The notes under the pieces: generated by a model | What the model was told of the DNA's origin: nothing | The model's input: the letters and a program-made list of their open reading frames with translations, nothing else | Databases searched by the model: none | Position numbers and translations under genes: made by a program | IMG/VR virus record: IMGVR_UViG_3300002835_000393 | Location: 1 to 41,903 of that record | Direction: 5' to 3' (one strand) | DNA length: 41,903 bases | Source: a virus | Part shown: positions 1 through 19,314 of the stretch, one piece after another | How the letters are laid out: every line of letters begins with the position of its first letter | How positions within the stretch are numbered: position 1 is the first letter of the stretch

Positions 1-164
1 GCTTTCATGCTAGCTTCTTGAGTAACGACATCACCAGTCTGATCCAGGTTATCTAATGTTGCGAATCCTGAGACTGTTCTTTTTTCTCTATTGACCTTCG
101 TAAATGGAACTGATAAATTAATAGCATTTCCATTAGAAGACCAATGTGACTTTTCTATGATCAT
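1..164 (-). CDS. Prohead protease (HK97/XkdF-like), N-terminal fragment
   Basis: The gene starts with ATG at 164 (complement) and runs off the left edge, so only about 54 residues are visible. They read like the start of phage prohead proteases: a short N-terminal strand, then RTVSGFATLDNLDQTGDVV, the typical opening beta-strands with the GxAT..D..GDVV signature of the S78/XkdF-type fold. The enzyme would cleave scaffold and capsid precursors during head maturation. It follows the portal gene on the same strand, the standard portal-protease order. The catalytic residues lie outside the window. Confidence 0.75.
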   Translation of the reverse strand, partial: MIIEKSHWSSNGNAINLSVPFTKVNREKRTVSGFATLDNLDQTGDVVTQEASMK

Positions 165-220
165 ATGTTATATATTATAGAGATTGTTGTATCAAAAGGC
201 AAATAACTAGTTGAGTAGGA

Positions 221-1801
221 CTAGTTGACTTGTCTTCCATCTCCCTTTGAATTTCTACCCTCCCCAGATTTATCTGGGGAATTTGCAGATCTTTCTTGGT
301 CACGTGTTCTACTTTGGTTGGCTTGAGCCTTAATTTCGGCTGCCTGGGCTGCAAGGTCTACTGGGACATCCCCACCATCTCTTGGAACCATTCCCATTCT
401 AACTCTAATTTCATTTGGAGTTATTACCTGGAATCTAAGATATCTTTCATCAATCTTTGATTGAGTGTCTGCATCTGTAAGACTTAATTCATTAAATTTA
501 AGCTCTAGCGCATCCGTCATTTCTTGAATAATCTTATTTAATTTCTTTTCTAGGTTTTCTTGGGCTGGTCTGCAGACCTGCTCTTTAAATGTTTTGTCTG
601 CATCTCTGGCTGCCGCAAGGTTGATACCTGCTGGTGTGCCAATTTTATTAATTGGGACTCTGTGAGCCATTAATATTTCATCTCTATTAGATTGACGATA
701 TATATTAAATGAAGACTCCTGAGAGCCCGCTTCAATTGGCTCCATTTTAAATTCAGTTTTTGAGTCTGGAGAATCTGGAGGAAGTGGAATATATAGTGAT
801 CTATGGTTCTTTCCTCTTAATCCTACCTGGAAAAATTCAAGCAATTTTCTTTCTGATTCGGTAGAAAGCTTTGCGCCCTTTACTGTAATAATGTATCTTG
901 GAACCGCCTTGTTTTCAAAATAGTCCAGGTTATACTTACCAGCAAATTCGTTTCCAGCCATAGCATTTTGTGCAGCAATAATATCTGGAATTCCATAATA
1001 ATTATTCTTAGGAGTGTACTTCTTTAAATGAATAATTTCGTTAGGTCTATCTTCTTGACCAGCAATTGGGTTTACAGTTTCTGTATCTCCAAAGTTTCTA
1101 AAGAAGACAGCCTTTCCATAAAGAAGCTGGATAAAACCGTCTCTGAGGCGTCTCACACGCATTGTCTTCGAAGGTATATGACCGATGTACCCTATCTTGC
1201 CAGTTGTTGTTCTGCCGACCTCCAGATAGCCATTACCAGTAGCCTCTATGTCGGTGTAGAACTTTATAAGCGTTTCTTTAAATGTTTCATCTTCATTACA
1301 ATCTTCTAGCCAACGATGTAGATCTTGCTTAATTCTATTTAACTTCTTACGTGCTCTTTCTAGCTGCTTTTCATCTTCTATATCTTCAAGGGTGTCTGTA
1401 GTTTTTTTTGATTCAATAAAGTCAAATCCTAGGCCTACAATGTTAGCAACCTTTGCATTTATTGCTGCATAGTTGTAAGGCGAAATTTCATAAATTGTTG
1501 AAAGATAATCTAAGTTATATTCTGGTTGGATTAGATCAAATGTAGCGTATCCGCTAACTGCCTGTTGGTGTTGAAGTTGCTGGCTTACGGCACCATCTTT
1601 ACCAGTAAAAGCTTTTTGTAGGTCTCTAGACACTTTTCTTCTAAATGAAGCGCCAAGTCCTGAAAGCTTTAATATCTCTTCAGCATCTATATCAAATAGA
1701 TCGTCAGATTTTTGTGTTGTAGGATTATTAAATCTCATCCAATCTGCAACATTGGATATCTCTACATTATCCTGAACTATGTCTTCGTCGTATTCAATCA
1801 T
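221..1801 (-). CDS. Phage portal protein
   Basis: This 526-residue protein forms the dodecameric ring through which DNA enters and leaves the head. It has the features of HK97/PBSX-type portals: an acidic, variable N-terminus, a core from about residue 90 with PYNYAAINAKVANIVGLGF, the GNGYLEV strand near 190, the YGIPDIIAAQNAM helix near 270, and a C-terminal charged tail (residues about 485-526) that looks disordered. Length is usual for the family. Its ATG overlaps the stop of the 114-residue gene upstream by four bases (ATGA), which suggests translational coupling. No large terminase gene lies beside it, which is unusual. Confidence 0.85.
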   Translation of the reverse strand: MIEYDEDIVQDNVEISNVADWMRFNNPTTQKSDDLFDIDAEEILKLSGLGASFRRKVSRDLQKAFTGKDGAVSQQLQHQQAVSGYATFDLIQPEYNLDYLSTIYEISPYNYAAINAKVANIVGLGFDFIESKKTTDTLEDIEDEKQLERARKKLNRIKQDLHRWLEDCNEDETFKETLIKFYTDIEATGNGYLEVGRTTTGKIGYIGHIPSKTMRVRRLRDGFIQLLYGKAVFFRNFGDTETVNPIAGQEDRPNEIIHLKKYTPKNNYYGIPDIIAAQNAMAGNEFAGKYNLDYFENKAVPRYIITVKGAKLSTESERKLLEFFQVGLRGKNHRSLYIPLPPDSPDSKTEFKMEPIEAGSQESSFNIYRQSNRDEILMAHRVPINKIGTPAGINLAAARDADKTFKEQVCRPAQENLEKKLNKIIQEMTDALELKFNELSLTDADTQSKIDERYLRFQVITPNEIRVRMGMVPRDGGDVPVDLAAQAAEIKAQANQSRTRDQERSANSPDKSGEGRNSKGDGRQVN

Positions 1802-2205: not shown

Positions 2206-3969
2206 TTATATAATCTGCAACACAACTCTGTCTCTAGAGTAGGTAGATACCGACTCTTCTGTCACTTCCATTGACGAACCTTGGCCAATAGATGCAGATT
2301 TGCCTGTATACAGGTCATAATGATCTTGATGGCTAATGTCTGGATTTGAGTATAGGGCAATATTCTGATACATATTGTCATCAAGGACATTAGATCTTAC
2401 TCCTAAAATCTGCTTTCCATTAAACCAAATAGGGCCAGATATTATGCTAGATGTTTTTATCAATATATAATTTGGCTCATCTATATATAAGTAGGATGAT
2501 ATGTTAGTTGCTGAGGATATATCCTGACCATTTATATATATGTTGCTAATGTTAGATTTTGATATCCCTCCGCCTGCCGCCCAAGAAAGAGATGTCTCTA
2601 CTGCGCCAGTCTTATTAAATATTAGGTTTCCGCTAGAAAGCGTTTTTGGAGTAAATATCATCTCAATATTCCGAACATCATTTACTGAGTCTATAAAGAA
2701 TGCTGAAGATTTTGGTCTTATTCCGTTATGGTAGTTTCTACTTCTAACTGGGTAGCTGTTGTTAGAAACATCAAAATCCCAAGTTGATCCAGAGGTTGGT
2801 TGAGATACTGAAAGCGTACTTCCTCCATTATGTGCAAACATTTTCTTTTCAGAATGAAAATAAATCTTTAAGGAGTAGAGTTCTGGAATGTAAAGATCTG
2901 GATTTGATGAATCAAAGACTACTCTAAAGTAAAGTATCTTTTGTGAAGAAAAGCTAGAACCTTGTGTAAATTCTGGAATAGAAGATCCGTTTGAACATAT
3001 TCTCCACGGGCCAAGTGATGATGTTTCTGAGACATATACTGAAACCCCTTTAGATGACACCCATTCTATTTTTGAAGATACGTATTGCTTTGTAATATTT
3101 AAAACCAGATCTTCTACAAACTCTCCATTGGAGAATCCTGAATTTAAACGTATGCTATTATTGCTTGGGTTGTATGACAAAGCCTCATTATCATAAATCA
3201 AAGTTTCCCAGGACTGCTGAACTGGATAAACATATTTTGTCTCTATATCTTGATATTTTTCTGCAGCCCTAAAAAGTTCTCCCAAATCTGGAACAGACAC
3301 CTGCTCGTCATTGTTTAAAAACAAATTATTGTAATGTGAGGATATAGCTCTTTGTGAAATAGAGTATCTGTATACTGCTGGACAATCTATCAAAAAGTGC
3401 TCTGTGTTAGATGCTGGTCCAGAATAAAGAGTCACACTAGTATTTGTAAACTTAAAGTCTACTGCTTTAGATGCAACCAAGACACTATCTACATATAGCA
3501 ACATGGAGTTGACTGAGTAAACTCCAACTGCATGTATTACTCTGTCTGGGTTTGGAACTGAATAATCAATTCTTTCATTTTCTAATTTAAATACCACATT
3601 ACCTTTATCCCAATATAAACCTATACCGCTTGAGTCTGCAAGTATAGGAGTTAGGGATGTTAAAGTTTTGGGGTGAAACCATACCTCTAAACTAAAATCG
3701 TTATCATATGTATCGATAGTTGCAAAGCCACCAGTACCATCTGTACCAGAAAAATCTTTTGATAAAGTAAATTGTAAATAGTTGCTGCTATCTACTTTGG
3801 TTGAGTGTAAGCCACCAGAAACAATTGGCATTCCAGATTTAATAATTTGTCCAACATAAGACCCATTATTACCACAGCCAGATATATCATACGCTACTGA
3901 GCCAGATAGCTCATCTAGTTTCCACATTCCAATTGGAAAATCTTTTATAGCTGATAAATAGTACGACAT
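2206..3969 (-). CDS. LamG/concanavalin-like domain virion protein
   Basis: A 587-residue protein with two jelly-roll (LamG/concanavalin A-like) regions. The first covers about residues 13-225: it begins MWKLDELSGSVAYDISG, the classical LamG opening, and contains FSLEVWFHPK and VHAVGVY-type strands. The second covers about 430-560, with RNIEMIFTPKTLSSG and LYIDEPNYILIK. Such proteins bind carbohydrate or decorate tails and heads. The start codon overlaps the stop of a 55-residue gene by one base (TAATG). It lies between the oxygenase block and the portal. A virion or host-glycan-binding role is inferred. Confidence 0.75.
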   Translation of the reverse strand: MSYYLSAIKDFPIGMWKLDELSGSVAYDISGCGNNGSYVGQIIKSGMPIVSGGLHSTKVDSSNYLQFTLSKDFSGTDGTGGFATIDTYDNDFSLEVWFHPKTLTSLTPILADSSGIGLYWDKGNVVFKLENERIDYSVPNPDRVIHAVGVYSVNSMLLYVDSVLVASKAVDFKFTNTSVTLYSGPASNTEHFLIDCPAVYRYSISQRAISSHYNNLFLNNDEQVSVPDLGELFRAAEKYQDIETKYVYPVQQSWETLIYDNEALSYNPSNNSIRLNSGFSNGEFVEDLVLNITKQYVSSKIEWVSSKGVSVYVSETSSLGPWRICSNGSSIPEFTQGSSFSSQKILYFRVVFDSSNPDLYIPELYSLKIYFHSEKKMFAHNGGSTLSVSQPTSGSTWDFDVSNNSYPVRSRNYHNGIRPKSSAFFIDSVNDVRNIEMIFTPKTLSSGNLIFNKTGAVETSLSWAAGGGISKSNISNIYINGQDISSATNISSYLYIDEPNYILIKTSSIISGPIWFNGKQILGVRSNVLDDNMYQNIALYSNPDISHQDHYDLYTGKSASIGQGSSMEVTEESVSTYSRDRVVLQII

Positions 3970-4136
3970 TATTTTTTAAACCAGATTCTTTGAAAAAACT
4001 TAATTACAGATCTCAAGTCTTCTTTATTTTTTTTATCTACTTTCTCCTGCTTTTCCAAAAACCCATGACTTTGAAAGTATGGGTTAAATTGAAGATCTGT
4101 AAAATGTCTTCTGGGGATTCTTTTATAAGGAGTCAT
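3969..4136 (-). CDS. Small basic hypothetical protein (55 aa)
   Basis: A short open frame, MTPYKRIPRRHF to FQRIWFKK, rich in Lys and Arg. It fills the gap between two neighbours and its TAA overlaps the ATG of the LamG gene by one base, the same TAATG coupling seen often in this operon. A TATAAT box ends seven bases before its ATG, so it may be read from a leaderless message. No family recognised. The coupling and the gap-filling are the main support. Confidence 0.55.
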   Translation of the reverse strand: MTPYKRIPRRHFTDLQFNPYFQSHGFLEKQEKVDKKNKEDLRSVIKFFQRIWFKK

Positions 4137-4143
4137 ATTCAAT

Positions 4144-4149
4144 ATTATA
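4144..4149 (-). promoter_or_regulatory. -10 box, leaderless-type
   Basis: A perfect TATAAT on the minus strand whose expected start point falls within one base of the ATG at 4136. No good -35 box is seen, so support is mainly the spacing shared with four other genes here. Confidence 0.35.
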
Positions 4150-4165
4150 CTACATAATCATAAAA

Positions 4166-4630
4166 TTAGCAGTCTAGCTTTTTTTCAATACCCAAATTCA
4201 AAAGGAATCTTTCTGGGTCAAATCTCCAGTTATCTTTGGCAAATGATGTCATTATTTCCATACAGGTATTTTCGTATGCCTGATCTGAAATTAAAGGCTT
4301 TAGACCCAATAACGTTTCTGTGACATCTATATAGTTTGTTCTAAGAAATGTTGGATCCCCCGCCTGATTTCTCTTAAACACCTTTTCATTTACTTTTCCT
4401 GTAGGCTCATATAATCTTACTGTAAGGTATTGCTTTGCAAAGCCCCAGTCATTGTACATGTTATATGCTTCTGCTGCCTCAATCGCATTTGGGAAAAATA
4501 TAATTGATCTCGCTGGCTCTTCCCCATCCCTTGCAATTGTAAGCATGTAAGCGTCGCTTATTTTTTCATTAACTGAATTAACATACTCTTTAACTACATC
4601 ATGATGCTCTTGCTTTAGTTGCCCACTCAT
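4166..4630 (-). CDS. Two-part hypothetical phage protein (fused form)
   Basis: 154 residues from an ATG that overlaps the upstream TAA by one base; an earlier GTG at 4639 is possible. The N-terminal half (YMLTIARDGEEP ... YNDWGFAKQYLTVRLYEPTGKVNEKVFKRN) matches the 67-residue protein at 30724-30927. The C-terminal half (SFAKDNWRFDPERFLLNLGI) matches the 63-residue protein at 30924-31115. This one gene therefore carries as a fusion what the early region carries as two overlapping genes. The second half has the FAxDNxRFDxxRF motif common in phage proteins of unknown function. Confidence 0.8.
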   Translation of the reverse strand: MSGQLKQEHHDVVKEYVNSVNEKISDAYMLTIARDGEEPARSIIFFPNAIEAAEAYNMYNDWGFAKQYLTVRLYEPTGKVNEKVFKRNQAGDPTFLRTNYIDVTETLLGLKPLISDQAYENTCMEIMTSFAKDNWRFDPERFLLNLGIEKKLDC

Positions 4631-5217
4631 TATGTCCACGCCATCTTAAATTTTTCTCTAAAATCCAAATACGGTATAGCATATGGATCTACCCACCAAT
4701 CTTCATGCCAATCTCTAACTACAAGCTTGTATCCAAGAGATGATAAAATTTCTCTTTGAGCTTCCCTCATTCCCTTATTATTGTACTCAATCTGCGAGTC
4801 ATGCTCAAAGGTAATTATTGAAAATCTATATTTGCTAAGAGGCACTGCTATTAATCCATGTAGTGTTAAATATGGATTCCCAACAGAATTTCCTTCTGGG
4901 GTGTAACCAGCATCTATATCAACTTGAAGATAATCTATTTGTTTTGGAAAGTTGTTTTCTTCAAAGTAAGATATATAGTTAAAGTGTGTAGCGTCTCCTA
5001 ATATACAAGGGTTCTTTCTGTTTGATACAAACTCCGCATGTCTTTCTGGATCTATCTCAAAGGATACCCCCTTCCAATTGTAATCTGTTTCTAGATGATA
5101 CGTGTTGCTTCCTTTTTTAGAGTCAAACGCTCCAAGCTCAACATAAAAACCATTTTCTTTATTTTTAAGAAGCTCAATAACAAATCTTTCTTGTCCACTA
5201 TTTCCCTTATACTCCAT
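4630..5217 (-). CDS. FkbM-like methyltransferase
   Basis: A 195-residue protein resembling FkbM-type S-adenosylmethionine methyltransferases. It has a motif I-like strand GFYVELGAFDSKKGSNTYHLE, then WKGVSFEIDP with the acidic residue expected at the end of strand 2, and DYLQVDID as the motif IV region. The ATG at 5217 is preferred over TTG at 5229 because a GGAG lies six bases upstream. It has a clear paralogue at 26880-27491 in this window. FkbM enzymes usually methylate sugars or small molecules. The substrate here is unknown, and the glycine-rich loop is degenerate, so catalysis is not certain. Confidence 0.7.
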   Translation of the reverse strand: MEYKGNSGQERFVIELLKNKENGFYVELGAFDSKKGSNTYHLETDYNWKGVSFEIDPERHAEFVSNRKNPCILGDATHFNYISYFEENNFPKQIDYLQVDIDAGYTPEGNSVGNPYLTLHGLIAVPLSKYRFSIITFEHDSQIEYNNKGMREAQREILSSLGYKLVVRDWHEDWWVDPYAIPYLDFREKFKMAWT

Positions 5218-5794
5218 GATATTCTCCAAAAATTTCTTTATTCAATGATATGCTATCATCAATATGATGTTTAATAAATACTGATGATATGTATCTAGTT
5301 ACATCATTTTTAACTGGCTTTGTTCCGTGTAAGACTTTACCACCATGTATAAGCAATGATCTACTTTTTGGCTTATGCACTATTTCTAACTCAGGATATT
5401 CTACTTCTCCTCCATCATAATTATCATTATAATAAAGAACAGCACCGTAAAATACCTTTTGATTAGATAGCCTGTGACCCTCATGATCATCAGTGTGAAG
5501 TCCAAGGAATTCATCAATTTTGTATCTTTGTAAGTTTATTCCAGTAACATCATGATTTCCAGAAAACAAATTAGAGATTCTAGAATGAAAGTCTAAAATC
5601 TTGCTATCTGGATAAATAAATTTTCTATTTAAAACCTTGGTGTCCCAAAATTCATACTGTACATCTTCTCCGTACCAGTCAGATTCGTTTCTTAATCCTA
5701 TAAACTGCATTACCTGATCAAGCTCATCTTGTGTTATAAAATTTTGTATTTCATAAACTTGATCAGATAACCTTACAATTTTATAGTCTGACAA
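5207..5794 (-). CDS. 2OG-Fe(II) oxygenase, prolyl-4-hydroxylase-like (P4H 6)
   Basis: This 195-residue protein has the full double-stranded beta-helix oxygenase signature: His100-Thr-Asp102 and His156 as the Fe(II) triad, Arg167 for 2-oxoglutarate, and YYNDNYDGGEVEYPE between them, typical of the P4H/PKHD group. Such enzymes hydroxylate protein side chains (often proline) using O2, with release of succinate and CO2. The start is TTG; no ATG occurs before residue 29. It is the last of six such genes in this minus-strand run. Confidence 0.85.
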   Translation of the reverse strand: MSDYKIVRLSDQVYEIQNFITQDELDQVMQFIGLRNESDWYGEDVQYEFWDTKVLNRKFIYPDSKILDFHSRISNLFSGNHDVTGINLQRYKIDEFLGLHTDDHEGHRLSNQKVFYGAVLYYNDNYDGGEVEYPELEIVHKPKSRSLLIHGGKVLHGTKPVKNDVTRYISSVFIKHHIDDSISLNKEIFGEYHGV

Positions 5795-5802
5795 GGATTA
5801 AA

Positions 5803-6561
5803 TCATTCCTGGTTTTGTTCGTGATAGGCTCTAATGTATTCTTCTGATGGTCCGCCTGGACCTCCAACAACATAACCGTCAACAAATATAAATCCAGGAG
5901 TAATAAACTTCTCTCCTGATTTCATTATATGAACTTGATGCTTGTATGGATCTGTAGACGGGAATATCAATGCGCTTCCAGCCTTTGGCTTTGCAGTAAA
6001 TGTAACCATGTCTTTTGTTCTTGGATCTAGCGCATCATCTGGTGGTCTAAGATGACCATTCATTTCTAATCTCAGATCTTCTGGTCTGATAACAAATGAT
6101 ATCTCTCCGCCTTCGTAGTTATCATTCCAATAAATAATAATTGACCATTCCAAGCTGTTGTCTCCAGCCTGTCTATCAAAGTGTGCGCCCATTGCACAAC
6201 CTTCAATATATTTTTGGATACCGACAAATGGTGATACGTTTGGTACTCCCTTAAGACCTCTATCAACAATAAAAGATTCTGATATATTTTTAATAGCATT
6301 TCTAATTGTTGATATAATAAAGTCTACATCTTTTCTTATGTCTTCATCTAAATTCTCTACCTCAGAAAGATTAAAGTCTTTTTTCTTTCCAAATATGTTT
6401 CCGTCTCTGCTACTTGAATTCCAGTTTTTCCAGCTTGGGATAACCTTATGAACTCTTTCATCAGAATCTAGCTTATTAATTAAATCAATAATTGCTTGGG
6501 GGTTCTCGATTACATCTGAGTACATGTAAACATTTTCATGTAATTTTTCTTCTAGCTTCAT
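5803..6561 (-). CDS. 2OG-Fe(II) oxygenase, prolyl-4-hydroxylase-like (P4H 5)
   Basis: A 252-residue oxygenase. Visible motifs are His127-Phe-Asp129, YWNDNYEGGEISF, the core KPKAGSALIFPS, the distal His208 and Lys218 ten residues later. Lys at this place is the 2OG ligand used by collagen-type prolyl 4-hydroxylases. There is an extra charged insert (about residues 160-188) between the two halves of the core. The ATG overlaps the upstream TAA by one base. Substrate unknown. Confidence 0.85.
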   Translation of the reverse strand: MKLEEKLHENVYMYSDVIENPQAIIDLINKLDSDERVHKVIPSWKNWNSSSRDGNIFGKKKDFNLSEVENLDEDIRKDVDFIISTIRNAIKNISESFIVDRGLKGVPNVSPFVGIQKYIEGCAMGAHFDRQAGDNSLEWSIIIYWNDNYEGGEISFVIRPEDLRLEMNGHLRPPDDALDPRTKDMVTFTAKPKAGSALIFPSTDPYKHQVHIMKSGEKFITPGFIFVDGYVVGGPGGPSEEYIRAYHEQNQE

Positions 6562-7304
6562 TAGTCGTTCTCCTCTATTTTATATTTATTGCCATCTAGA
6601 TCTATCTTATAACCTTCTTTTAATGCATCCTGCCATTCTGACTTTATAACCTCTTGCTCTTCTCTAATTTTTTTCATTTCTGCATCCCAGGCATCTATCG
6701 TTTCTTGAGGGTATGACTCTGGTGACCTATTATCCCAAAAGGATCCCAAAGTATATCTAATACCAGAAGTAATCATTGTAACCTCATGCGTATTATCAAA
6801 TCCGCCAGCAAAGGCTGCTAGGCAACCAGTTTCTGGAACAAGTGTGTGATTTTGCTTGTTAAATATTAATTGTCCGCCTTCAAACTCATCATTTAAATAC
6901 AAGAACGCTGCGTATCTACTTCTTTCAAACGGACCAGTATTTCCTTGCAAATCTGTATTGTCAGAGTGCTCTTTTGCAAATGCGCCTGGCTCCCATTTTT
7001 GAGCATGAAATCCAATCTTATGGATATCTGAAGAAGAGTGTCCATGAACCTCTGCTACTGCATCAATAATTTTATTTTGAAGTGTTGAAAAAAAATCTGA
7101 TGGCAATCCAAATTTTTCTAGCTCTTCGTCCCCATCTTGTGGAAGCACTGAAGAATATGATTCATAAAATGTAATTGGAGTCCAGGATAGCTTTTCATTT
7201 AATACCTGTTCTTCTAAAACTTTTATGATTGCAGAAGATTCTTCTTTTGTTAAAAAGTTTTTAAATACTAATATGTCTGACGTTAATCTTTCTGAAGTAC
7301 TCAT
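6561..7304 (-). CDS. 2OG-Fe(II) oxygenase, prolyl-4-hydroxylase-like (P4H 4)
   Basis: A 247-residue oxygenase with His113-Ser-Asp115, LYLNDEFEGGQLIFNKQ, His173 and Arg183 (GIRYT). It ends with a charged helical tail (about residues 205-247). The Arg at the 2OG site separates it from the Lys-type members of this block. Coupled to both neighbours: its ATG overlaps the upstream stop by four bases and its stop overlaps the next ATG by one. Confidence 0.85.
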   Translation of the reverse strand: MSTSERLTSDILVFKNFLTKEESSAIIKVLEEQVLNEKLSWTPITFYESYSSVLPQDGDEELEKFGLPSDFFSTLQNKIIDAVAEVHGHSSSDIHKIGFHAQKWEPGAFAKEHSDNTDLQGNTGPFERSRYAAFLYLNDEFEGGQLIFNKQNHTLVPETGCLAAFAGGFDNTHEVTMITSGIRYTLGSFWDNRSPESYPQETIDAWDAEMKKIREEQEVIKSEWQDALKEGYKIDLDGNKYKIEEND

Positions 7305-8032
7305 TTATTTATATCCTCATCCATAAGTGTTCTATAATATTTTTTATTTGGATCTGGCTGATTTTCTCCAGTATGCTCTAGTATTTCCCAAAAGAAAGGA
7401 CATGTGTATCTAATGGCACCCTTAATTTCTGTTACCCCGTGGATATAGTTCATATCTCCTGGGAAAAAATATGCTGCGCCTTTCTTGGGTTTAAACTGAA
7501 CATTTTGTAGTGGAAAGTAAAGCTCTCCGCCTTCATAGTCATCGTTTAAATAAAATAAGCTTGACAAATCATAATAAGGAAAATCATTTGGCATCCCAAT
7601 ATCTGGAAGCTCATGAAGTTCTTTGTCTGCGTGAGGTTTTTGAAACTGTCCAGGTAGCCATCTTACAATTGTCGTTCCCGTAGGGGTTACCTTAACCTTA
7701 TAAAAATCTTCAACGATTGGCTTTAGTCTTTCAAATAAACCCTGGAGCACTGGTCTAATTTCTGGGTCATTTTTATCTAAAGATGGGCTAGTGCAAACTC
7801 TATCTTTCCAATAGTTAGCATCGTATACGGTTGTACCATTTTCATTAACATGGCTTTCTGTTATATCCCATATAGTAATTTTTCTAGCAGCTGCTTCAAG
7901 GAATTCTATTTCTTCTTGAGTCATAAAGTTTTCAAGCTCGACAATCATATCTTTGCTTGTACCAAAAAAGCCAGATGGCGTAAGGGATGGAGTTTTGTAG
8001 ACTACTGTAGCGTCCTGATTTGTTTGATTCAT
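7301..8032 (-). CDS. 2OG-Fe(II) oxygenase, prolyl-4-hydroxylase-like (P4H 3)
   Basis: A 243-residue oxygenase with the iron site His134-Ala-Asp136 and His198, Arg208 for 2OG, and the loop YLNDDYEGGELYFP. The core strand KPKKGAAYFFPGDMNYIHGV is classical for the P4H fold. An extended -10 box (TGA-TATAAT) lies so that transcription would start at or beside the A of its ATG. It may therefore be expressed from its own leaderless message as well as from the long operon. Confidence 0.88.
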   Translation of the reverse strand: MNQTNQDATVVYKTPSLTPSGFFGTSKDMIVELENFMTQEEIEFLEAAARKITIWDITESHVNENGTTVYDANYWKDRVCTSPSLDKNDPEIRPVLQGLFERLKPIVEDFYKVKVTPTGTTIVRWLPGQFQKPHADKELHELPDIGMPNDFPYYDLSSLFYLNDDYEGGELYFPLQNVQFKPKKGAAYFFPGDMNYIHGVTEIKGAIRYTCPFFWEILEHTGENQPDPNKKYYRTLMDEDINK

Positions 8033-8038
8033 ATATTC

Positions 8039-8047
8039 ATTATATCA
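8039..8047 (-). promoter_or_regulatory. Extended -10 promoter, leaderless, overlapping a stop codon
   Basis: On the minus strand TGA-TATAAT gives an extended -10 box. The TGA is the stop codon of the 237-residue gene (AAGAAATGA), and the predicted start point is 8032, the A of the P4H ATG. The plus-strand P4H at 24303 has the identical arrangement. Confidence 0.6.
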
Positions 8048-8758
8048 TTTCTTGTTTTTGGAAGTAAGGTCTGTAATCTTTAACTTTAAAGACTTCAACT
8101 CATGCTTTCCTAGGCTTGTACCATCATATTCTACAGCATCTCTATAGAAATTAGTAAACTCGCCTCTTTTAGAAATCTCTTCCCAAACCTTTAGTCTTTC
8201 CGCCTTCATTTTTTGATCATCTACAAACACTTTGTCTTTAATTTCTAGGTCTATGTCCTGATACTGCTTTAAAGATATTGGAATAAATGTTGCTACTGGC
8301 ATTCCTGCTGGTATCTTTATTACTGTATTTGGTCTTGTTATTTTCCATGCAATTGGGATAGCTTCCTTTAAAACAGAAGTGGATATAATTGTTGTAAATG
8401 GCGTAGCTCCATCTACAAAGAAATTTGGTGGAACTATTTGAAGCATAGACATGTTTTCGTCTGACTCAAAGAAAAATCCAGAGTAAAAGCTAACAGTAGC
8501 ATTCGCTCTTTGGGTGGTGCATACGTTTCCTTCATCTTTTAATATAGTTACATGATCTGGAGTAGTATCAGATATACCGTCCCAAATAAACTCTATGTCG
8601 TGATCAAAGGAAATAGACCAACCAATTGTATTTGCTAAAGATACTGGGAAACATTTATATGCATGAGCATTTACTGTTTCATCCATCCAGTCTCTTTTAA
8701 CTTTAGTTTGTTCAATTTTTGAAGGGGTTACGCTATTTTTATAGACTGTTATTTTCAT
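8045..8758 (-). CDS. DUF6065-like beta-sandwich protein
   Basis: A 237-residue protein resembling what I remember as the DUF6065 family: CFPVSLANTIGWSISF near the start, then alternating strands with IVPPNFFVDGATPFTTII and AIPIAWKITRPNTVIKIPAGMPVATFIPISL. The pattern suggests an all-beta, cupin-like or jelly-roll fold. No catalytic residues can be named. It sits between two oxygenase genes and overlaps the end of the upstream one by 20 bases. Two more distant relatives (9464-10243 and 26219-26887) are also next to oxygenase or methyltransferase genes, so a shared role with them is likely but unknown. Confidence 0.65.
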   Translation of the reverse strand: MKITVYKNSVTPSKIEQTKVKRDWMDETVNAHAYKCFPVSLANTIGWSISFDHDIEFIWDGISDTTPDHVTILKDEGNVCTTQRANATVSFYSGFFFESDENMSMLQIVPPNFFVDGATPFTTIISTSVLKEAIPIAWKITRPNTVIKIPAGMPVATFIPISLKQYQDIDLEIKDKVFVDDQKMKAERLKVWEEISKRGEFTNFYRDAVEYDGTSLGKHELKSLKLKITDLTSKNKK

Positions 8759-9467
8759 TTACTTCGTTATCCCACTTTGGATCGTACATGTCTGGAGTAT
8801 GAAACTTTTTGCTATAGTCAAGCATTGTGACAATAGAATATTTTATTCCATTTGTAACTGGTTTAGCCTGATGAGCGTACATAAAGTTAGATGGGAAAAC
8901 ATATAGGTCTCCAGCTTTTGGCTTAATGTTTAAATCCTGAAGTCTAAAATAAAGCTCTCCGTTATCATAATCATCGTTAATATATGCTACAAGGGAGACC
9001 ACGCAATTGTATGAGTACCCGTGATCCTGATGCTCCATAAAATGTTGATTTTCTCCATACTTGATAAAATTAAATGCTTCCCAATACTTTAGTTCCATCA
9101 AGTTATGTTCTTTGCAGTAATCAACAACTGCTGGATACTGTGCATCATAAACGTCTTGCCATAGTGCTTGTAACCTTAAAGACTCTTCACTTGTATCTTT
9201 GCTAATATCTGTTTTTTTAAATTTAAAATCTACACAATCTCTATAGTTTGGTATTAGTTGCTGGTATCCAACATATGCTGGCATCCAGTGATATCTTTTG
9301 CCTTCAGGAGACAATGATCCATATTCAGCTACTGATCCTAGGTTGCTCTCAAGTCTATTGATTACATCAAGATCTTTTTTAATTACATCTCTGTAAACAA
9401 TAATACCAGGCGCTAAGACCTCTTTGCTACTCCATGTTGGAGCTGTGCTTTTAGATTCTGTTGTCAT
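8739..9467 (-). CDS. 2OG-Fe(II) oxygenase, prolyl-4-hydroxylase-like (P4H 2)
   Basis: A 242-residue oxygenase counted from the ATG at 9467, which overlaps the upstream TGA by four bases and has AGAGGGA upstream; an earlier in-frame start at 9488 is less likely. Motifs are His146-Gln-Asp148 (EHQDHG), YINDDYDNGELYF, KPKAGDLYVFPSNFMYAH with the distal His199, and Lys209 as the 2OG ligand. It is closely similar to P4H 1 (10221-10925), especially EAFNFIKY and PSNFMYAH, so the two arose by duplication. Confidence 0.87.
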   Translation of the reverse strand: MTTESKSTAPTWSSKEVLAPGIIVYRDVIKKDLDVINRLESNLGSVAEYGSLSPEGKRYHWMPAYVGYQQLIPNYRDCVDFKFKKTDISKDTSEESLRLQALWQDVYDAQYPAVVDYCKEHNLMELKYWEAFNFIKYGENQHFMEHQDHGYSYNCVVSLVAYINDDYDNGELYFRLQDLNIKPKAGDLYVFPSNFMYAHQAKPVTNGIKYSIVTMLDYSKKFHTPDMYDPKWDNEVNENNSL

Positions 9468-10243
9468 TTGTAATCCCTCTTTATCCAAACTTTTGATTTA
9501 TAAACTCCACCATCAGGCTGACGGTAAAATTTTGCATTTTCAATTAATCTTTCTTGCATCTCTTTTATACTTAAGTATTCAACATTATGTTCCCAGTCTT
9601 CTCTTTTAAAGGGAAGAACTTGAAGGAAAGGAGTTCCTTTTGGAACTGTGCCCTCCCAATCTTTTGCAATAAAAAATGGGAATGTTCCCAAAAGGTGAAC
9701 CTTGTCATTATCAACAACACCACTGGTGTTTAAAAATGGAAGATCAAATCTGTTCATCGGTGTCATAAACAATGCGCTGTATCCTTCTGGAACCTGAATT
9801 CCCCATTCTGGATACCAGGCAAAATGCTCCTCATAGTATCCAATTGGAGATGGAAACTGATCCATTGGAGTCCTTGCTGTAACAAATCCAGTATGCTTTT
9901 TGTCTTTTATATCAACTGTAATCTTTCCATTTTTATCTTTTTTAAATTCTAAATCACATGGTGTGCTCAATACATATCCTGTCATAAAAGCATCTAGTAT
10001 AGCTGGACAAGCTTTCCATGTTGGAATTTTACCATAATCATTTGTTGTTCCTTCTCTTGGAACTGGACAAATCTCTTTTGTTGCCTTATAATATTCTCCA
10101 TTTGGCATTTTTGCAAATCTATCTGCTTCCTTATACCAGTCTGGAATTGAATTTTGTGTTGGTTTTGGTAAAGATGGACTGAACCTATTTAGCCATGGCC
10201 TAAAAGATTGAAATAGTATTTTAATACTTTTGGCCTTCCTCAT
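9464..10243 (-). CDS. DUF6065-like beta-sandwich protein
   Basis: About 259 residues. It shares with 26219-26887 the order PDWYK, CPA(I/F)xDAF, W(Y/H)PxW, PxGYSALFMTPMNRFDLPF, SGVV and PxGTPFLQVLPFKREDWE. The repeated strand pattern points to an all-beta fold. The function is unknown; similar proteins accompany 2OG oxygenases in other environmental phages. The ATG at 10243 lies inside the end of the upstream oxygenase gene; another ATG at 10261 is possible, and neither has a strong ribosome-binding site. Confidence 0.65.
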   Translation of the reverse strand: MRKAKSIKILFQSFRPWLNRFSPSLPKPTQNSIPDWYKEADRFAKMPNGEYYKATKEICPVPREGTTNDYGKIPTWKACPAILDAFMTGYVLSTPCDLEFKKDKNGKITVDIKDKKHTGFVTARTPMDQFPSPIGYYEEHFAWYPEWGIQVPEGYSALFMTPMNRFDLPFLNTSGVVDNDKVHLLGTFPFFIAKDWEGTVPKGTPFLQVLPFKREDWEHNVEYLSIKEMQERLIENAKFYRQPDGGVYKSKVWIKRDYK

Positions 10244-10925
10244 CTTTGTGATAAAGATCATTATAATCCATCATAACCACAACAGAATACTTTTGCCCAG
10301 ATGTAATATCTAATGATGCATGTTCATAAACAAAGTTCGATGGGAATAGGATTATGTCTCCAGCTTTTGGCTTTAGCTTAAAGTTATGTCTTGGGAACTC
10401 AATCTCGCCGCCCTCATAATCGTCGTTAAGATAAACAACTGCAGATACAGTGCATGTGTAGTATGGGCCGTGATCGGCGTGGATCTTAAAAAACTCTCCT
10501 GGCAAATATTTAACAAAGTTGAATGCTTCTTTGTAGTTAATATTAAAATTCCAAATAGATTCGTAATGCCTTAACGACTTGTTTAGTCCAACATCAACTA
10601 AATCATAACATTCTTTTAAGGCTTCGCTTTCGCCTATATATTTTCCAACATGATCTCTTTTAAATTTTAAGTCATAGCAGTTTCTAGCATGAGAAGTTCT
10701 TTTTTCTCCGTTAACTGTTGCACCATGCCAAGCAATGCCTCTTTTGCCCAGGGATATTTCTTTTTCTAAAAGGTCAATTATTTTTTTGCAGTCTTCTTGG
10801 CTTATAGCGTTTCGATATAGATTAATTCCATAATCAATATTCTGTACTTCAATATTTTCATTAATAACTATTGAATCAAGTCTTGAATTTGTTTTTTCAA
10901 TTCTTGGCAGGTCGTACCATTCCAT
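10221..10925 (-). CDS. 2OG-Fe(II) oxygenase, prolyl-4-hydroxylase-like (P4H 1)
   Basis: A 234-residue oxygenase with His149-Ala-Asp151 (KIHADHG), YLNDDYEGGEIEFP, KPKAGDIILFPSNFVYEH, distal His202 and Lys212. Lys is the 2OG ligand of collagen-type prolyl hydroxylases. It is the first gene of the oxygenase block and lies directly downstream of the gene for the Pro/Phe-repeat protein, only 79 bases away on the same strand. That makes the repeat protein an obvious candidate substrate (inference). Confidence 0.87.
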   Translation of the reverse strand: MEWYDLPRIEKTNSRLDSIVINENIEVQNIDYGINLYRNAISQEDCKKIIDLLEKEISLGKRGIAWHGATVNGEKRTSHARNCYDLKFKRDHVGKYIGESEALKECYDLVDVGLNKSLRHYESIWNFNINYKEAFNFVKYLPGEFFKIHADHGPYYTCTVSAVVYLNDDYEGGEIEFPRHNFKLKPKAGDIILFPSNFVYEHASLDITSGQKYSVVVMMDYNDLYHKDEEGQKY

Positions 10926-10955
10926 TTTTTCTCTTTTCGACTATGCAATCTTATC

Positions 10956-10980
10956 ATACTTTTCTAGAAAAGAAAAGTAT
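10956..10980 (-). terminator. Hairpin between Pro/Phe protein and oxygenase block
   Basis: A 10-bp perfect stem ATACTTTTCT / AGAAAAGTAT with a 5-base loop, in the only sizeable gap between the tail genes and the oxygenase block. It could end tail transcripts or attenuate reading into the block. No clear U-run follows on the minus strand. Confidence 0.4.
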
Positions 10981-11004
10981 TTATAATCATTAATTTATAA
11001 CTGA

Positions 11005-11931
11005 TTAGTAAGGTCCCCAGCCACCGAATGATGGGAAGGATGGTCCAAATGATGGTCCGAATCCTGGGAAGAACGGTCCGAATCCTGGGAAGTATGGTCC
11101 GAATCCTGGGAAGAACGGTGCTTTAAATCCTGGGAAGTATGGTCCAAATCCTGGGAAGAACGGTGGGAAGAATGGTGGGAAGAACGGGAAGAACGGTGGG
11201 AAGAACGGGAAGAACGGTGGGAAGAACGGTGGGAAGAACGGTGGGAAGAATGGTGGGAAGAACGGGAAGAACGGTGGGAAGAACGGGAAGAACGGTGGGA
11301 AGAATGGTGGGAAGAATGGGAAGAACGGTGGTAGAGTCATAACGCTTCCAGTGCTATTTGAAGCCAAAGACGGACCGTTGTCGTTTCTTGCTATAACAGA
11401 GTATGTCTGTGAAGTATTTGCTGTATCAGCTATTACTGCTGATGTTGCACTTCCAGCTAAGTTTCCAGAAGCTGATCCATCGGATCCAGTAACATTGTGC
11501 CGTGTTAACGGCTTGCCTCCGTTTGCTCCTAGTTGCCAGTTAATTGTATTTTGATTTACACCAGCTGTTGCTGAAGCAGATTGAGGTTGCTGTGGGACTG
11601 TTGTGACTGTAACTGGGCCTTTAGCATCTGAAACAAGGGAAGTTCCTGCAGCGTTTGAGGCTGTCATTGTAAATGTTGGAGTTGCACCAGATGCAAATCC
11701 TGTTATAACAATTGGAGAGGACGATCCTGTTCCTGTTTGTCCAGTACTTGCTGTTATATTATAAGATGTTGCTGGAGGGGAGCCTGCTGGCAAAGAAAAT
11801 GCTACTGTTACGGCACCATTATTATAAGGCCTATCTGTTCCAACGTCTGTGACGCTGTCAATTATTGGCTTATTTGGCTCCAAGAAATTATCTTGTGCTG
11901 ATGACCTCGTACCTATTCTTTTATTTGCCAT
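11005..11931 (-). CDS. Fibronectin III-like virion protein with Pro/Phe-only repeat
   Basis: 308 residues. Residues about 20-200 form two fibronectin type III-like domains (PIIDSVTDVGTDRPYNNGAVTVAFS; TSYNITASTGQTG; QTYSVIARNDNGPS). Residues 201-260 consist only of Pro and Phe in units PFFP and PFFPFFP. Residues 261-308 are FGPYFPGF-type repeats ending GGWGPY. It ends the tail-fibre gene run, so it is probably a minor tail or decoration protein. The C-terminus is extremely hydrophobic and Pro-rich and lies beside six prolyl-hydroxylase-like genes, so hydroxylation is a natural guess. The start ATG is clear: 26 bases after the fibre gene in transcription order. Confidence 0.75.
   Translation of the reverse strand: MANKRIGTRSSAQDNFLEPNKPIIDSVTDVGTDRPYNNGAVTVAFSLPAGSPPATSYNITASTGQTGTGSSSPIVITGFASGATPTFTMTASNAAGTSLVSDAKGPVTVTTVPQQPQSASATAGVNQNTINWQLGANGGKPLTRHNVTGSDGSASGNLAGSATSAVIADTANTSQTYSVIARNDNGPSLASNSTGSVMTLPPFFPFFPPFFPPFFPFFPPFFPFFPPFFPPFFPPFFPPFFPFFPPFFPFFPPFFPPFFPGFGPYFPGFKAPFFPGFGPYFPGFGPFFPGFGPSFGPSFPSFGGWGPY
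11008..11331 (-). repeat. Tandem 9/12-bp repeat coding for Pro/Phe and Gly/Phe/Pro units
   Basis: On the plus strand the units GGGAAGAAC and GGGAAGAACGGT follow one another from 11152 to 11331 (the Pro/Phe-only part). Related TGGGAAGAACGGTCCGAATCC-like units run on to 11008. Such repeats expand and contract easily, so the length probably differs between related phages. Confidence 0.9.
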
Positions 11932-11957: not shown

Positions 11958-14900
11958 TTATGCTGTTAAGTCTCCAGCTAGCAACCAAGTATTTGTTGCT
12001 ACCTTGGTAAGTGTTGCTGATGAGTGTGTTGTTCTTAGCTTTAATCCTGGTGTGCGTAAAATTGTAACTGTACCATCTGCTGCTACAAAGTTAGCTCCAG
12101 TTCCAGATGCTTGGTAAAAGCTTATTGAAGTTCCAACTGGGTATGCTGTTGTTGCATTTGTTGGAACTGTAATTGCCCGTGTTCCTGCTACTGGAATTAA
12201 CTGATCTCTTAGAGCAAGTCCACCTGTTGAAAGGTTATAATCTGCTGAAATTTCAGTTCCAATTACTGTTAGAGAAGGAACTCCTTGTTTTGTCTGTGCT
12301 CCATCTGTAAATGCTACTCCTGCTGCTGCAACTGTTACTGTACCAGTAAATGTTGGGCTAGCTATTGGAGCATAAGTTGATGCAGCTGTAGCAGAAGCTA
12401 GCTTCAAATCAAGTGCTGTTTGCTGTGCTGTTGAGACTGGCTTGCTTGCATCTGATGTATTATCAACATTTGCAAGGCCTACCATAGACTTTGTAATTCC
12501 GTTTACTGTACCAGTAAATGTTGGTGAGTCAGTTGGGGCTATTACATAATAATCTGATCCGTTAGTTGTAAACTCCCACTTATCGGTGGCTTCGTTCCAA
12601 CGCACCTGCACTGCATTAGAGTCTCCACGAATTACTCTGATTCCTGCATTTTCTGTAGGAGTACCAGTAGTATAATTGCTGTTTAGATCAATAATGTTAT
12701 CAGCTAAGCTAATTGTTTCGCTGTTAACAGTTGTTGTTGTTCCGCTTACTGTCAAGTTTCCGCCTACAACAAGGTTTCCATTTACTTCTGCATTATCATT
12801 TAAGTAAACTTTTCCTGTGCCATTTCCTGACAAAGAAAGGTCTGTGTTTGTACTTCTGCTTGTTAGAGTGTCAGACTTAAGTCCGTTGCTAAATCCAATT
12901 CCATTGCCGTCTGAGCTTGAGAAATTTGCTCCCGCTTCAACAACAACTGGGCCCTTGATATTGATAGAGCCAGCTCCTGTTGGATCAAACTCTATGTTAC
13001 CGCTGCCGCTTGTTCTTAGTCCTAGATTTTCATTAATGTCAGCAGAAACAACAATTGCTCCAGATTCATCCTGAAGAACCTTTTGTCCGTTAACATATAG
13101 AGATCCTGGACCTACGTAGATATCTTTCCACATGTTTGTAGGAGAACCTAAGTCAAATGTATTATCTGTTGTAGGAACTATACTTCCACCTGCTGTTACT
13201 GCTGGAAGAACTACTGTGCCAGTAAATGTTGGTGAAGCTTTTGGAGCCTTTAAATCAAGCTCTGTCTGAGTAGCAGTTGAAACTGGCTTATTTGCATCTG
13301 ATGTGTTGTCAACATTTGCAAGGCCTACTGAAGACTTTGTAAGTGCTGCTACTGCAGTTGACACCTTTGTGTCTGCTGCTGTTCCAGCTTCTGAAATTGC
13401 TTCCGATTTAGCTGTTGCAACATTTGTTGTAGTTGCTAGCAGTGAAGTGTCTGCAATACCGTGAATATTTGTTGTATCTGCTTCGTGATTTGAAAGTGCT
13501 GTTGCTGCTGCGCCAATCTGTGTTTGTACAGAAGATGTAATTCCATCAAGGTATCCTAACTCTGTTGAAGTAAGGTTTCCGATTGATGTTGTGCTTGGCA
13601 ATGTTACTGTTCCTGTGAATGTAGGAGATTCAGATGGTGCCTTAGCATCGATCTGAGTCTGTACGTTTGCTGTAACTCCGTTTAGAAGATCTAGCTCTTG
13701 GGAAGAAATATTTCCGATAGTTGTAGTTGAAGGAAGAACTACTGTTCCTGTGAATGTAGGAGAAGCAGATGGCGCCTTAGCATCGATCTGAGTCTGTACG
13801 TTTGCTGTAACTCCGTTTAGAAGCTCTAGCTCTTCGGATGATAGGTTTCCAATACTTGTAGTTGAAGGAAGAACTACTGTTCCTGTGAATGTAGGAGAAG
13901 CAGATGGCGCCTTAGCATCGATCTGAGTCTGTACGTTTGATGTAACTCCGTTTATCATTTGCATTTCATCTGCAGAAACATTTCCAATACTTGTAGTTAT
14001 TGGAAGAGAGAATGTTCCAGAAAATGCTGGTGCATCGATTACTGGACTATTAATTGTTTTGTTAGTTAGAGTTTGTGTTTCAGTTGTTCCAACAACTACT
14101 CCTGGAAGAGACTTTCCTAAAACTGTGCTTATTGTTAAGACATCAATGTTGTTTATCTTAATTGATTTGTCTCCAGGAATATTAATATTTTCTGATGACT
14201 CCCAAGCATCTTTAGCAACGCTGTATGTAATTGATTTATCTGTTGTTCCTTTTAGAACTATACCGCCGCCGTTAGCTCCAGCATCTGTTGGAGATGATGT
14301 TTGTCCAAGAACTATGTCTTTATCTTGAACTGTAAGTGTTGTTGAGTTAATTGTAGATGTTGTTCCATTTACGGTCAAGTTTCCAGAAATTGTAAGGTTG
14401 TTTGCTGTTGCAGTTCCAGTAAGAGCTGGTGACTCTAGTGGTGCTTTCAAGCCAAGTGCTGCAAGTGCTGCAAGAGAGACTGGCTTATTTTCATCTGAAG
14501 TATTATCAACATTTGCAAGACCTACATCTGACTTAACTAGGCCAGAAGGAGATGTAATTGTTTTATTTGTAAGTGTTTGAGTTCCATTGGTTGTTACAAG
14601 AAGGCTTGTATCTGCGATACCGTGAACAGATGTTGTATCTGCTTCGTGAGCTGCTACTGCAGCTGAAATTGCGGCTGTTGCAGAAATTTCTCTCCAGTTT
14701 CCATTAGTGCTTGCTGGTGAAGAAGATAGTACATATGTTGTTCCGTTGTCTGCCTGAATGGCAATATCTCCAGCTTCTGCTGTAAGGGCAAGTCTTGCTG
14801 CTTGATTAGCAACTGCACTAACTGTTACCTTTGCTAGGGGAGGTAGCTGAGATGCTGGGATAAATCCAGAAGAGTCAAGAGATGCGACTCCGTTTGCAGC

Positions 14901-15101
14901 TCCCTTTGTGGTTAGTAGAATATAATCGTCTACAGTTCCTGAAAGGGCATATTCAAGGCTGTTCCATGGAGTATTACCGTCACCAAATTTAAAGGTGTTA
15001 GTATCTGTTTCAATACCAATTTCTCCAGCTGCCAATGTTGGGTTTGCATCAAACCAATCGTCTGCTAAGCCTCTTCTTAATTGTAATCTTACTGTTGCCA
15101 T
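11958..15101 (-). CDS. Large tail fibre protein
   Basis: A 1047-residue fibre. Residues about 1-55 (LQLRRGLADDWFDANPTLAAGEIGIETDT ... FKFGDG, quoted in parts) match the N-terminal module found at the base of many receptor-binding fibres. The body is repetitive: GLANVDNTSDxNKPVS occurs three times, TQTLTNKTI twice, and a 45-residue unit with IGNLSSEELELLNGV about four times. Two GNLTVNGTT-type segments also occur. The C-terminus (about 960-1047) is a distinct beta-rich tip. It probably forms a trimer that contacts the host surface. Confidence 0.8.
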   Translation of the reverse strand: MATVRLQLRRGLADDWFDANPTLAAGEIGIETDTNTFKFGDGNTPWNSLEYALSGTVDDYILLTTKGAANGVASLDSSGFIPASQLPPLAKVTVSAVANQAARLALTAEAGDIAIQADNGTTYVLSSSPASTNGNWREISATAAISAAVAAHEADTTSVHGIADTSLLVTTNGTQTLTNKTITSPSGLVKSDVGLANVDNTSDENKPVSLAALAALGLKAPLESPALTGTATANNLTISGNLTVNGTTSTINSTTLTVQDKDIVLGQTSSPTDAGANGGGIVLKGTTDKSITYSVAKDAWESSENINIPGDKSIKINNIDVLTISTVLGKSLPGVVVGTTETQTLTNKTINSPVIDAPAFSGTFSLPITTSIGNVSADEMQMINGVTSNVQTQIDAKAPSASPTFTGTVVLPSTTSIGNLSSEELELLNGVTANVQTQIDAKAPSASPTFTGTVVLPSTTTIGNISSQELDLLNGVTANVQTQIDAKAPSESPTFTGTVTLPSTTSIGNLTSTELGYLDGITSSVQTQIGAAATALSNHEADTTNIHGIADTSLLATTTNVATAKSEAISEAGTAADTKVSTAVAALTKSSVGLANVDNTSDANKPVSTATQTELDLKAPKASPTFTGTVVLPAVTAGGSIVPTTDNTFDLGSPTNMWKDIYVGPGSLYVNGQKVLQDESGAIVVSADINENLGLRTSGSGNIEFDPTGAGSINIKGPVVVEAGANFSSSDGNGIGFSNGLKSDTLTSRSTNTDLSLSGNGTGKVYLNDNAEVNGNLVVGGNLTVSGTTTTVNSETISLADNIIDLNSNYTTGTPTENAGIRVIRGDSNAVQVRWNEATDKWEFTTNGSDYYVIAPTDSPTFTGTVNGITKSMVGLANVDNTSDASKPVSTAQQTALDLKLASATAASTYAPIASPTFTGTVTVAAAGVAFTDGAQTKQGVPSLTVIGTEISADYNLSTGGLALRDQLIPVAGTRAITVPTNATTAYPVGTSISFYQASGTGANFVAADGTVTILRTPGLKLRTTHSSATLTKVATNTWLLAGDLTA
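13576..13980 (-). repeat. Three near-identical 135-bp units in fibre gene
   Basis: The block containing CGCCTTAGCATCGATCTG recurs at a constant 135-bp spacing (anchors near 13636, 13771 and 13906), equal to 45 codons. Units two and three are almost identical at DNA level, which suggests recent duplication or gene conversion. A more diverged unit flanks each side. Confidence 0.85.
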
Positions 15102-18873: not shown

Positions 18874-19314
18874 TTATGACAGGTATGCTGTCCCTGAAAA
18901 TGGTTGAGCCATAGTCAGTGTTATTTGATTAGTACTATTGTAGTCTATTCCAGTTTCCAAAATATCTCCAGCACTGGATTTAACCGTTACGTTTGGTTGA
19001 TATCCTAGTCCATGAGTAATAACAAGAGAATACACTCCCATTGAAGGGCCAGTTACTTGAGCTAGCTCCCATGAATAAGCTAATGTATTATTTGTTAAGA
19101 ATATTTTGCTTGCTCCCGACCAAGTTACGTCAGAAAGTTTTGGTCCGTGAAATGCAGCGGACAACATGTCAAAGTAAAAATCTCCAACTAGACCTAGATT
19201 TGCTGCTGGGTCTCCAGTGCCATTTAAAATGGTTCTTCCTCTTGGACCTTGTGGTCCAGGTGAAGAAATTACTACTTTGTTTATTTGCTCTCGAACAACT
19301 ACAGATTCAGTCAT
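18874..19314 (-). CDS. Virion protein with short collagen-like motif
   Basis: 146 residues. Residues about 19-27 read PGPQGPRGR, a short Gly-X-Y segment that can trimerise as a collagen-like knot. GDPAANLGLVGDFYFDMLSAAFHGP, in parts, is a common phage tail module, and the C-terminal domain is VITHGLGYQPNVTVKSSAGD. The Pro residues at X/Y positions are a second possible substrate for the prolyl-hydroxylase-like enzymes. The start overlaps the previous stop by one base. Confidence 0.7.
   Translation of the reverse strand: MTESVVVREQINKVVISSPGPQGPRGRTILNGTGDPAANLGLVGDFYFDMLSAAFHGPKLSDVTWSGASKIFLTNNTLAYSWELAQVTGPSMGVYSLVITHGLGYQPNVTVKSSAGDILETGIDYNSTNQITLTMAQPFSGTAYLS

Follow-up and report, generated by a model that had tools for sequence, protein, structure and literature searches.

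Why would a virus encode a protein segment made only of proline and phenylalanine and carry genes for enzymes of the prolyl 4-hydroxylase (P4H) type directly behind it? The question is raised by IMG/VR virus record IMGVR_UViG_3300002835_000393, whose 41,903 bases, all of which were analyzed and are called the window here, hold a gene at 11005–11931(-) for a protein with a Pro/Phe tail, with a cluster of genes for 2-oxoglutarate (2OG)-Fe(II) oxygenases downstream on the same strand. A preliminary description of this DNA proposed that proline of the virion is hydroxylated after translation. Comparative evidence favors the core of that proposal, the pairing of the Pro/Phe tail with a P4H, and speaks against two of its parts, a collagen-like motif in a neighboring protein as a further sign and solubility as the benefit. 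On the basis of these sequence comparisons, we consider it probable that the tail prolines are the substrate of the neighboring P4H-like enzymes, and that tail gene and oxygenase genes form one late-gene cassette.

The Pro/Phe tail and its predicted hydroxylase

Translation of the tail gene gives 308 amino acids and bears out the composition described at the outset: residues 201–260 are Pro and Phe only, 32 Phe and 28 Pro in 60 residues, arranged as PFF and PPFF units that include 11 PP and 16 FF (11152–11331 in the window), with no Lys or Arg. The FGPYFPGF repeats that were said to follow this run are present as FGPYFPGF/FKAPFFPGF units, and the protein then ends in GGWGPY. Tandem DNA repeats of 12, 21, 33, and 45 bases, as found by TRF, match the Pro/Phe array. 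The protein has no Pfam match, FN3 included, and several of its homologs match fn3 (PF00041, 9e-13 to 1e-6). Its place beside a fiber gene of Mtd_N type, in a gene run towards the portal, suggests that the product is a virion protein.

Relatives of residues 1–200 are encoded at 70 viral loci, and what varies among them is the segment after the FN3-like part, which may be PFFPPFF, PPHFPPFF, SPPGFF, PFGFTPFGFT, or a nearly Pro-free (AFG)n, the repeats of the homologs being in frame with the FN3-like part. The (AFG)n tails at L169, L395, L416, L466, and other loci are long and belong to the same protein family. Repeat length differs even among very close relatives (L147 versus L149; L184–L187). 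Many homologs, among them those at L138, L139, L142, L154, L159, and L184, also carry a Hint/intein-like domain at the C-terminus, directly after the repeat, that is absent from the window protein; in L139 it matches PF14890 at 3e-6, below the cut-off, with motifs such as CIDQDTLI..HN. This domain might cleave itself or link the tail to something. The tail protein has no match in isolate phages. A cellular-genome source was considered and rejected: a scan of genome contigs gave 12 matches, of which four (L377, L380, L385, and L387) are assembled metagenome contigs whose Pro/Phe tails look real, and the rest resemble chance open reading frames (ORFs).

The nearest gene downstream of the tail had been described as a Lys-type P4H, and this assignment holds, as the product matches PF13640 (7e-12) with the HxD..H..K site kept. 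The iron triad of the HxD...H motif (H149, D151, and H202) is invariant in 28 aligned sequences, as is K212, the expected 2OG-binding Lys of P4Hs; the product of 8739–9488 is among these sequences. In sequence, the enzyme is closest among solved proteins to the P4H of Bacillus anthracis and then to lysyl hydroxylases, with the P4H of Paramecium bursaria chlorella virus 1 (PBCV-1) ranking lower. For an AlphaFold2 model with a mean pLDDT of 88, the Foldseek matches in the PDB are led by Chlamydomonas P4H-1, PBCV-1 vCPH, PHD2, and bacterial P4Hs (2JIG, 5C5T, 3GZE, 4IW3, and 5HV0), and almost all of the 50 best matches are hydroxylases of protein-bound proline. These matches have a query TM of 0.51–0.67 and an identity of 14–20%, and at such identity the choice of substrate is not readable from the fold match. 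By site and fold, the enzyme is a predicted protein prolyl hydroxylase. It also matches PHROG 61, the phage 2OG-Fe(II) oxygenases, at 1e-32; its nearest isolate-phage counterparts, in Synechococcus phages (25–29% identity), are sited elsewhere, the best one adjoining DNA-metabolism genes.

Tail proline and the oxygenases behind it

PF13640-type genes were counted at 78 loci with a hidden Markov model (HMM) derived from the oxygenases of the window. Each of these loci has a tail gene of FN3 type with 4 kb or more of sequence downstream of it, and their FN3 parts are less than 95% identical. Many of the 78 had been fetched by a search for the given tail type and none via the enzyme; before removal of near-copies, and with enzyme-fetched loci included, there were 161. 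The counts rest on fragments of uncultured viruses. With class limits set after the data had been inspected, all 58 loci with Pro-rich tails (at least 30% Pro) have two to nine oxygenases within 8 kb downstream, all six with sparse Pro (10–27%) have one or two downstream, and all 12 with Pro-free (AFG)n tails have no downstream oxygenase of the PF13640 type. The two loci whose FN3-type protein has no aromatic tail likewise have none downstream. The co-occurrence of PFFP repeats and P4H genes across contigs, which the preliminary description had offered as a check, thus came out favorably, as oxygenase number tracks tail Pro over the 78 loci. A homolog of DUF6065 shows the same preference, being found downstream in 53 of the 58 Pro-rich loci versus 0 of the 20 others. 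Genes of the phrog_7084 type accompany 49 of the 58 Pro-rich and all 12 Pro-free loci and are therefore not specific to Pro.

The association is also directional. Of 60 PFFP ORFs followed by 4 kb or more of sequence, 52 have an oxygenase downstream on the same strand, whereas the count for the upstream side is 3 of 37, so that repeats commonly present without a P4H, the pattern named earlier as contrary to the idea, are not what is seen. Oxygenase density is 0.338 per kb at PFFP loci versus 0.005 per kb at viral loci retrieved with a pattern of FG repeats. Most of a set of 23 records examined have few oxygenases or none close to the repeat, and 17 of the 23 carry one in the same record. The FN3 model leaves 38 Pro/Phe ORFs unrecognized, and for 28 of these an oxygenase gene lies no more than 8 kb downstream; some of the 38 are FN3-type fragments, others look short and PASTA-like or large and adhesin-like by eye, and several of those lacking an oxygenase are large proteins with the repeat as an inner linker or lie in records with oxygenases elsewhere.

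The reverse comparison, from hydroxylase to tail, gives a similar result. Of the 80 best homologs of the P4H (42–100% identity), 51 are preceded by 2.5 kb or more of sequence, and in 49 of these a Pro/Phe-tail gene lies upstream on the same strand, often ∼50–200 bases away. Of the other two contigs, one begins within a tail-type gene, in its Hint domain, and one within the oxygenase cluster, which leaves 49 of 49 assessable loci with the tail. Apparent exceptions at L291 and L317 are truncations at contig edges; at L246 a single oxygenase occurs and the tail is absent.

Finally, we compared phages whose portals are 75–100% identical to that of the window. Those with a Pro-rich tail have five to seven oxygenases upstream of the portal, and in those without oxygenases the Pro-rich tail is absent as well. 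Eight oxygenase-free records were examined, seven of them in full and one, 22.2 kb long, over its first 20 kb; none contains a PF13640 gene or a Pro/Phe tail, and the ribonucleotide reductase, tail genes, fiber, LamG, and portal are kept where covered. One of the eight carries a tail-less FN3 homolog, and another has a YYAAPQYY repeat that is rich in Tyr and sparse in Pro. The portal tree shows three changes of the cassette, two of them forced by supported branches, and no discordant case of tail and cassette occurs among loci long enough to judge; at a few cassette loci the tail falls beyond the 10 kb flank or the contig.

Competing readings and a possible course of modification

Several observations weigh against tail hydroxylation as the explanation. 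The HMM count misses divergent oxygenases. L018 and L114, both fragments (37 and 38 kb records), encode a Pro/Phe protein with no oxygenase nearby or in the record, and in several large Pro/Phe proteins the repeat is an inner linker. The portal tree offers only three independent changes, and the three contrasts on supported branches of the FN3 tree, none of them discordant, give a median p of 0.25 in a sign test, which is not significant alone. Five to seven enzymes are also more than would be expected for one repeat, and some may act elsewhere.

One competing reading is shared history, in which oxygenase cluster and Pro/Phe tail would be independent, linked cargo in a hypervariable late region of one aquatic phage group, with the oxygenases modifying small molecules, nucleic acid, or host proteins. 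Phylogeny does confound much of the counts, as the labels are tightly clustered on the tree, and the 2OG oxygenases of cyanophages are scattered, away from any such tail, and have been proposed to serve DNA repair or 2OG/N metabolism (PMC3037559). However, where the base protein carries an aromatic tail free of Pro, no such oxygenases lie downstream, the Pro/Phe ORFs outside the FN3 model also tend to lie near oxygenases, and the P4H sits behind a Pro/Phe tail wherever this can be assessed. On the FN3 tree, moreover, the Pro-rich label changes seven times, three of them forced by well-supported branches, and independent pairs agree almost always and are never opposite. Concordant changes recur on both the FN3 and the portal trees (L159/L171 versus L164; L126 versus L394; L274 among cassette-less portals). 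We therefore regard shared history as an unlikely explanation of the pattern.

A second possibility is that the oxygenases hydroxylate a different residue, for example the Phe β-carbon or residues of the Ig/FN3 part or the fiber, Pro content being a mere correlate of tail type. The five to seven distinct Lys- and Arg-type enzymes per cassette do point to more than one target, and genes of Asp/Asn-hydroxylase type and of an HDH..H..R type occur as well. Yet Phe and the Ig/FN3 part persist at (AFG)n loci where PF13640 oxygenases are absent downstream, which suggests that tail Pro, not Phe, is the likely target; fibers are kept in the oxygenase-free portal relatives, and the nearest folds of the first enzyme are protein prolyl hydroxylases. 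We give this alternative little credence. Neutral low-complexity expansion by tandem DNA slippage, without any role, would fit the variable repeat length among very close relatives and the tandem DNA repeat under the array, but it is highly improbable and was rejected, since PPFF, SPPGFF, PPHF, PFGFT, and AFG fill the same place in the protein from different DNA repeats, the reading frame is preserved, and the set of enzymes varies with repeat type.

From the repeat, the family, site, and predicted fold of the enzyme, the adjacency of the genes, and the co-variation with tail Pro, we infer a substrate role for the tail and the following course of modification. The tail gene would yield an adhesin-like protein with an Ig/FN3-like base and an extended aromatic-proline repeat, probably situated in the tail tip or fiber complex. 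Before assembly, in the host cell, prolyl hydroxylases would use O2, 2-oxoglutarate, and iron to turn many tail Pro residues into hydroxyproline. The enzyme of 10221–10925 would act first and the other 2OG oxygenases would assist, each perhaps reading its own Pro context, such as PFF, either P of PPFF, or FGPYF. Hydroxyproline would be expected to stiffen the chain into a polyproline-like rod, with hydroxyl groups dotting an otherwise greasy surface and serving adhesion or chain packing.

The benefit first suggested, that hydroxylation makes the repeat soluble, loses ground here: the (AFG)n homologs are equally aromatic, Pro-free, and strongly hydrophobic, yet have no PF13640 oxygenase downstream. 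With plain solubilization weakened as the main benefit, rod stiffening, adhesion, or further decoration remain, and a sulfotransferase-type gene in ∼10 cassettes fits the last of these. The neighboring protein at 18874–19314 does contain the PGPQGPRG reported for it. As a sign of Pro hydroxylation, and as a P4H substrate, it was rejected, because its (P/S)GPQGP(R/A)G motif is conserved in the PF13640-free relatives G064, G067, G073, and G076. In the last of these, a 30 kb record with no PF13640 gene, the ORF 96–1376(-) of L372 has a long collagen-like GPVGPQGPQGPAGPTGATG run. Residues 201–260 of the tail protein hold no Gly and thus no Gly-X-Y collagen repeat.

Further enzyme genes were observed in cassettes of this kind. 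A family with an HDH...GHPH...R motif and no Pfam or informative PHROG match is encoded at L154 (14625–15371 and 16141–16851), L194 (11314–12689), L161, L164, and L394. It is present in two to three copies at all 10 sparse-Pro loci (before removal of near-copies), at no fewer than five Pro-rich loci, and at no Pro-free locus; motif reading indicates that it is probably a divergent oxygenase. A sulfotransferase gene at L083 (2110–2940; PF03567, 1.6e-6) belongs to the sequence cluster found in ∼10 Pro-rich cassettes, and its product could cap hydroxylated residues. At L138, where the locus has only two oxygenases, a radical SAM/SPASM gene (3885–4955) behind the Pro-rich tail may supply a further tail-modifying enzyme. 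A wider idea, which we put forward tentatively and somewhat doubt, is that aquatic phages exchange cassettes of a repeat with a matching oxygenase set. Aromatic tails with PP would come with a P4H battery and DUF6065, sparse-Pro PFGFS/T tails with one or two PF13640 enzymes and an HDH..H..R pair, and Pro-free AFG tails with none; the set would read the repeat, the hydroxyls may be capped, and the product would be a swappable, modified virion adhesive.

Known systems and other genes of the cassette

The nearest precedent is the P4H of PBCV-1; PMC9301287 cites work on its peptide substrates (Eriksson et al. 1999) and evidence that viral proteins contain hydroxyproline. The PBCV-1 vCPH (PDB 5C5T/5C5U), second in the Foldseek ranking, is likewise a protein P4H encoded by a virus, with that virus's proteins as its proposed targets; PBCV-1, however, is a virus of eukaryotic algae, whereas here the candidate substrate gene is followed directly by two to nine oxygenases in a late region of bacteriophage type. 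The enzymes of plants and algae that make hydroxyproline-rich glycoproteins also act on non-collagen Pro repeats and provide the nearest solved fold family, but theirs is a eukaryotic system, while ours involves Phe-Pro repeats and a bacterial host. Plant and algal P4H substrates carry Ser-Pro-type motifs and are modified in the eukaryotic secretory pathway. We know of no PFF/PPFF repeat substrate described for PBCV-1 vCPH. The algal case is represented by Chlamydomonas P4H-1 with (Ser-Pro)5 (PDB 3GZE). Collagen-like phage proteins, for example of an E. coli prophage (PMC3368898), resemble the tail in being Pro-rich repeats of phage structural proteins; they are built of Gly-X-Y, unlike the Gly-free Pro/Phe run, and in the window's phage group collagen-like segments occur without PF13640 genes.

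Cyanophages and other aquatic phages encode 2OG-Fe(II) oxygenases of the same enzyme family (PHROG 61; "P4HA" auxiliary metabolic genes) that have no established substrate, whereas here a candidate substrate adjoins, one absent from isolate phages. With a prolyl-hydroxylase annotation, such oxygenases rank among the most frequent auxiliary genes in aquatic viruses; in a Baltic survey P4HA was present at 62% of water stations, and its viral use "remains cryptic" according to the authors (PMC9301287). Structure-based annotation has noted the prolyl-hydroxylase likeness of phage 2OG oxygenases (PMC12774648), and in the literature searched, which was without preprints and most subscription papers, we found no paper on P4H-modified Pro/Phe repeats in phages. 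The present comparison names a specific, genomically adjacent candidate substrate for one large subset of these enzymes. If the assignment is true, it would mean prolyl hydroxylation of a bacteriophage structural protein and an unusual aromatic-proline material, possibly a hydroxylated adhesive or rod.

Table 1. Genes and protein segments of the Pro/Phe-tail cassette and its surroundings in the window
Feature	Position	Strand	Basis
Pro/Phe-tail protein, 308 aa, Ig/FN3-like residues 1–200 plus tail	11005–11931	-	translation; 70 viral homologs
Run of 32 Phe and 28 Pro, residues 201–260, proposed hydroxylation target	11152–11331	-	translation, TRF
GFGPYFPGF-type units to GGWGPY end, residues 261–308	11008–11151	-	translation
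Tail fiber with Mtd_N domain, upstream neighbor of tail gene	11958–15101	-	PF18454 2e-12; minor tail/fiber PHROGs
Lys-type P4H-like 2OG-Fe(II) oxygenase, 79 bases past tail gene, same strand	10221–10925	-	PF13640 7e-12
phrog_7084 protein	9464–10261	-	PHROG match
Second Lys-type 2OG-Fe(II) oxygenase	8739–9488	-	PF13640 3e-12; H, D, H, K conserved in alignment with 10221–10925
DUF6065 protein, cassette member	8045–8758	-	PF19541 1.6e-32
2OG-Fe(II) oxygenase, Arg-type by motif reading	7301–8032	-	PF13640 2e-8
2OG-Fe(II) oxygenase, Arg-type by motif reading	6561–7304	-	PF13640 3e-8
2OG-Fe(II) oxygenase, Lys-type by motif reading	5803–6561	-	PF13640 6e-9
2OG-Fe(II) oxygenase, Arg-type by motif reading	5207–5794	-	PF13640 9e-6, at family cut-off
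Seventh 2OG-Fe(II) oxygenase, outside cassette	24303–24953	+	PF13640 2e-10

As Table 1 shows, six of the window's seven PF13640 oxygenase genes lie downstream of the tail gene, with the DUF6065 and phrog_7084 genes among them, and LamG and portal genes follow. The predicted fold of the DUF6065 protein is weakly dUTPase-like (best E 5e-4). The window also has methyltransferase-like genes at 4630–5229(-), 23658–24290(+) (TylF-type, PF05711), and 26880–27491(-); the first, which has no Pfam match, and the third are FkbM-like by reading.

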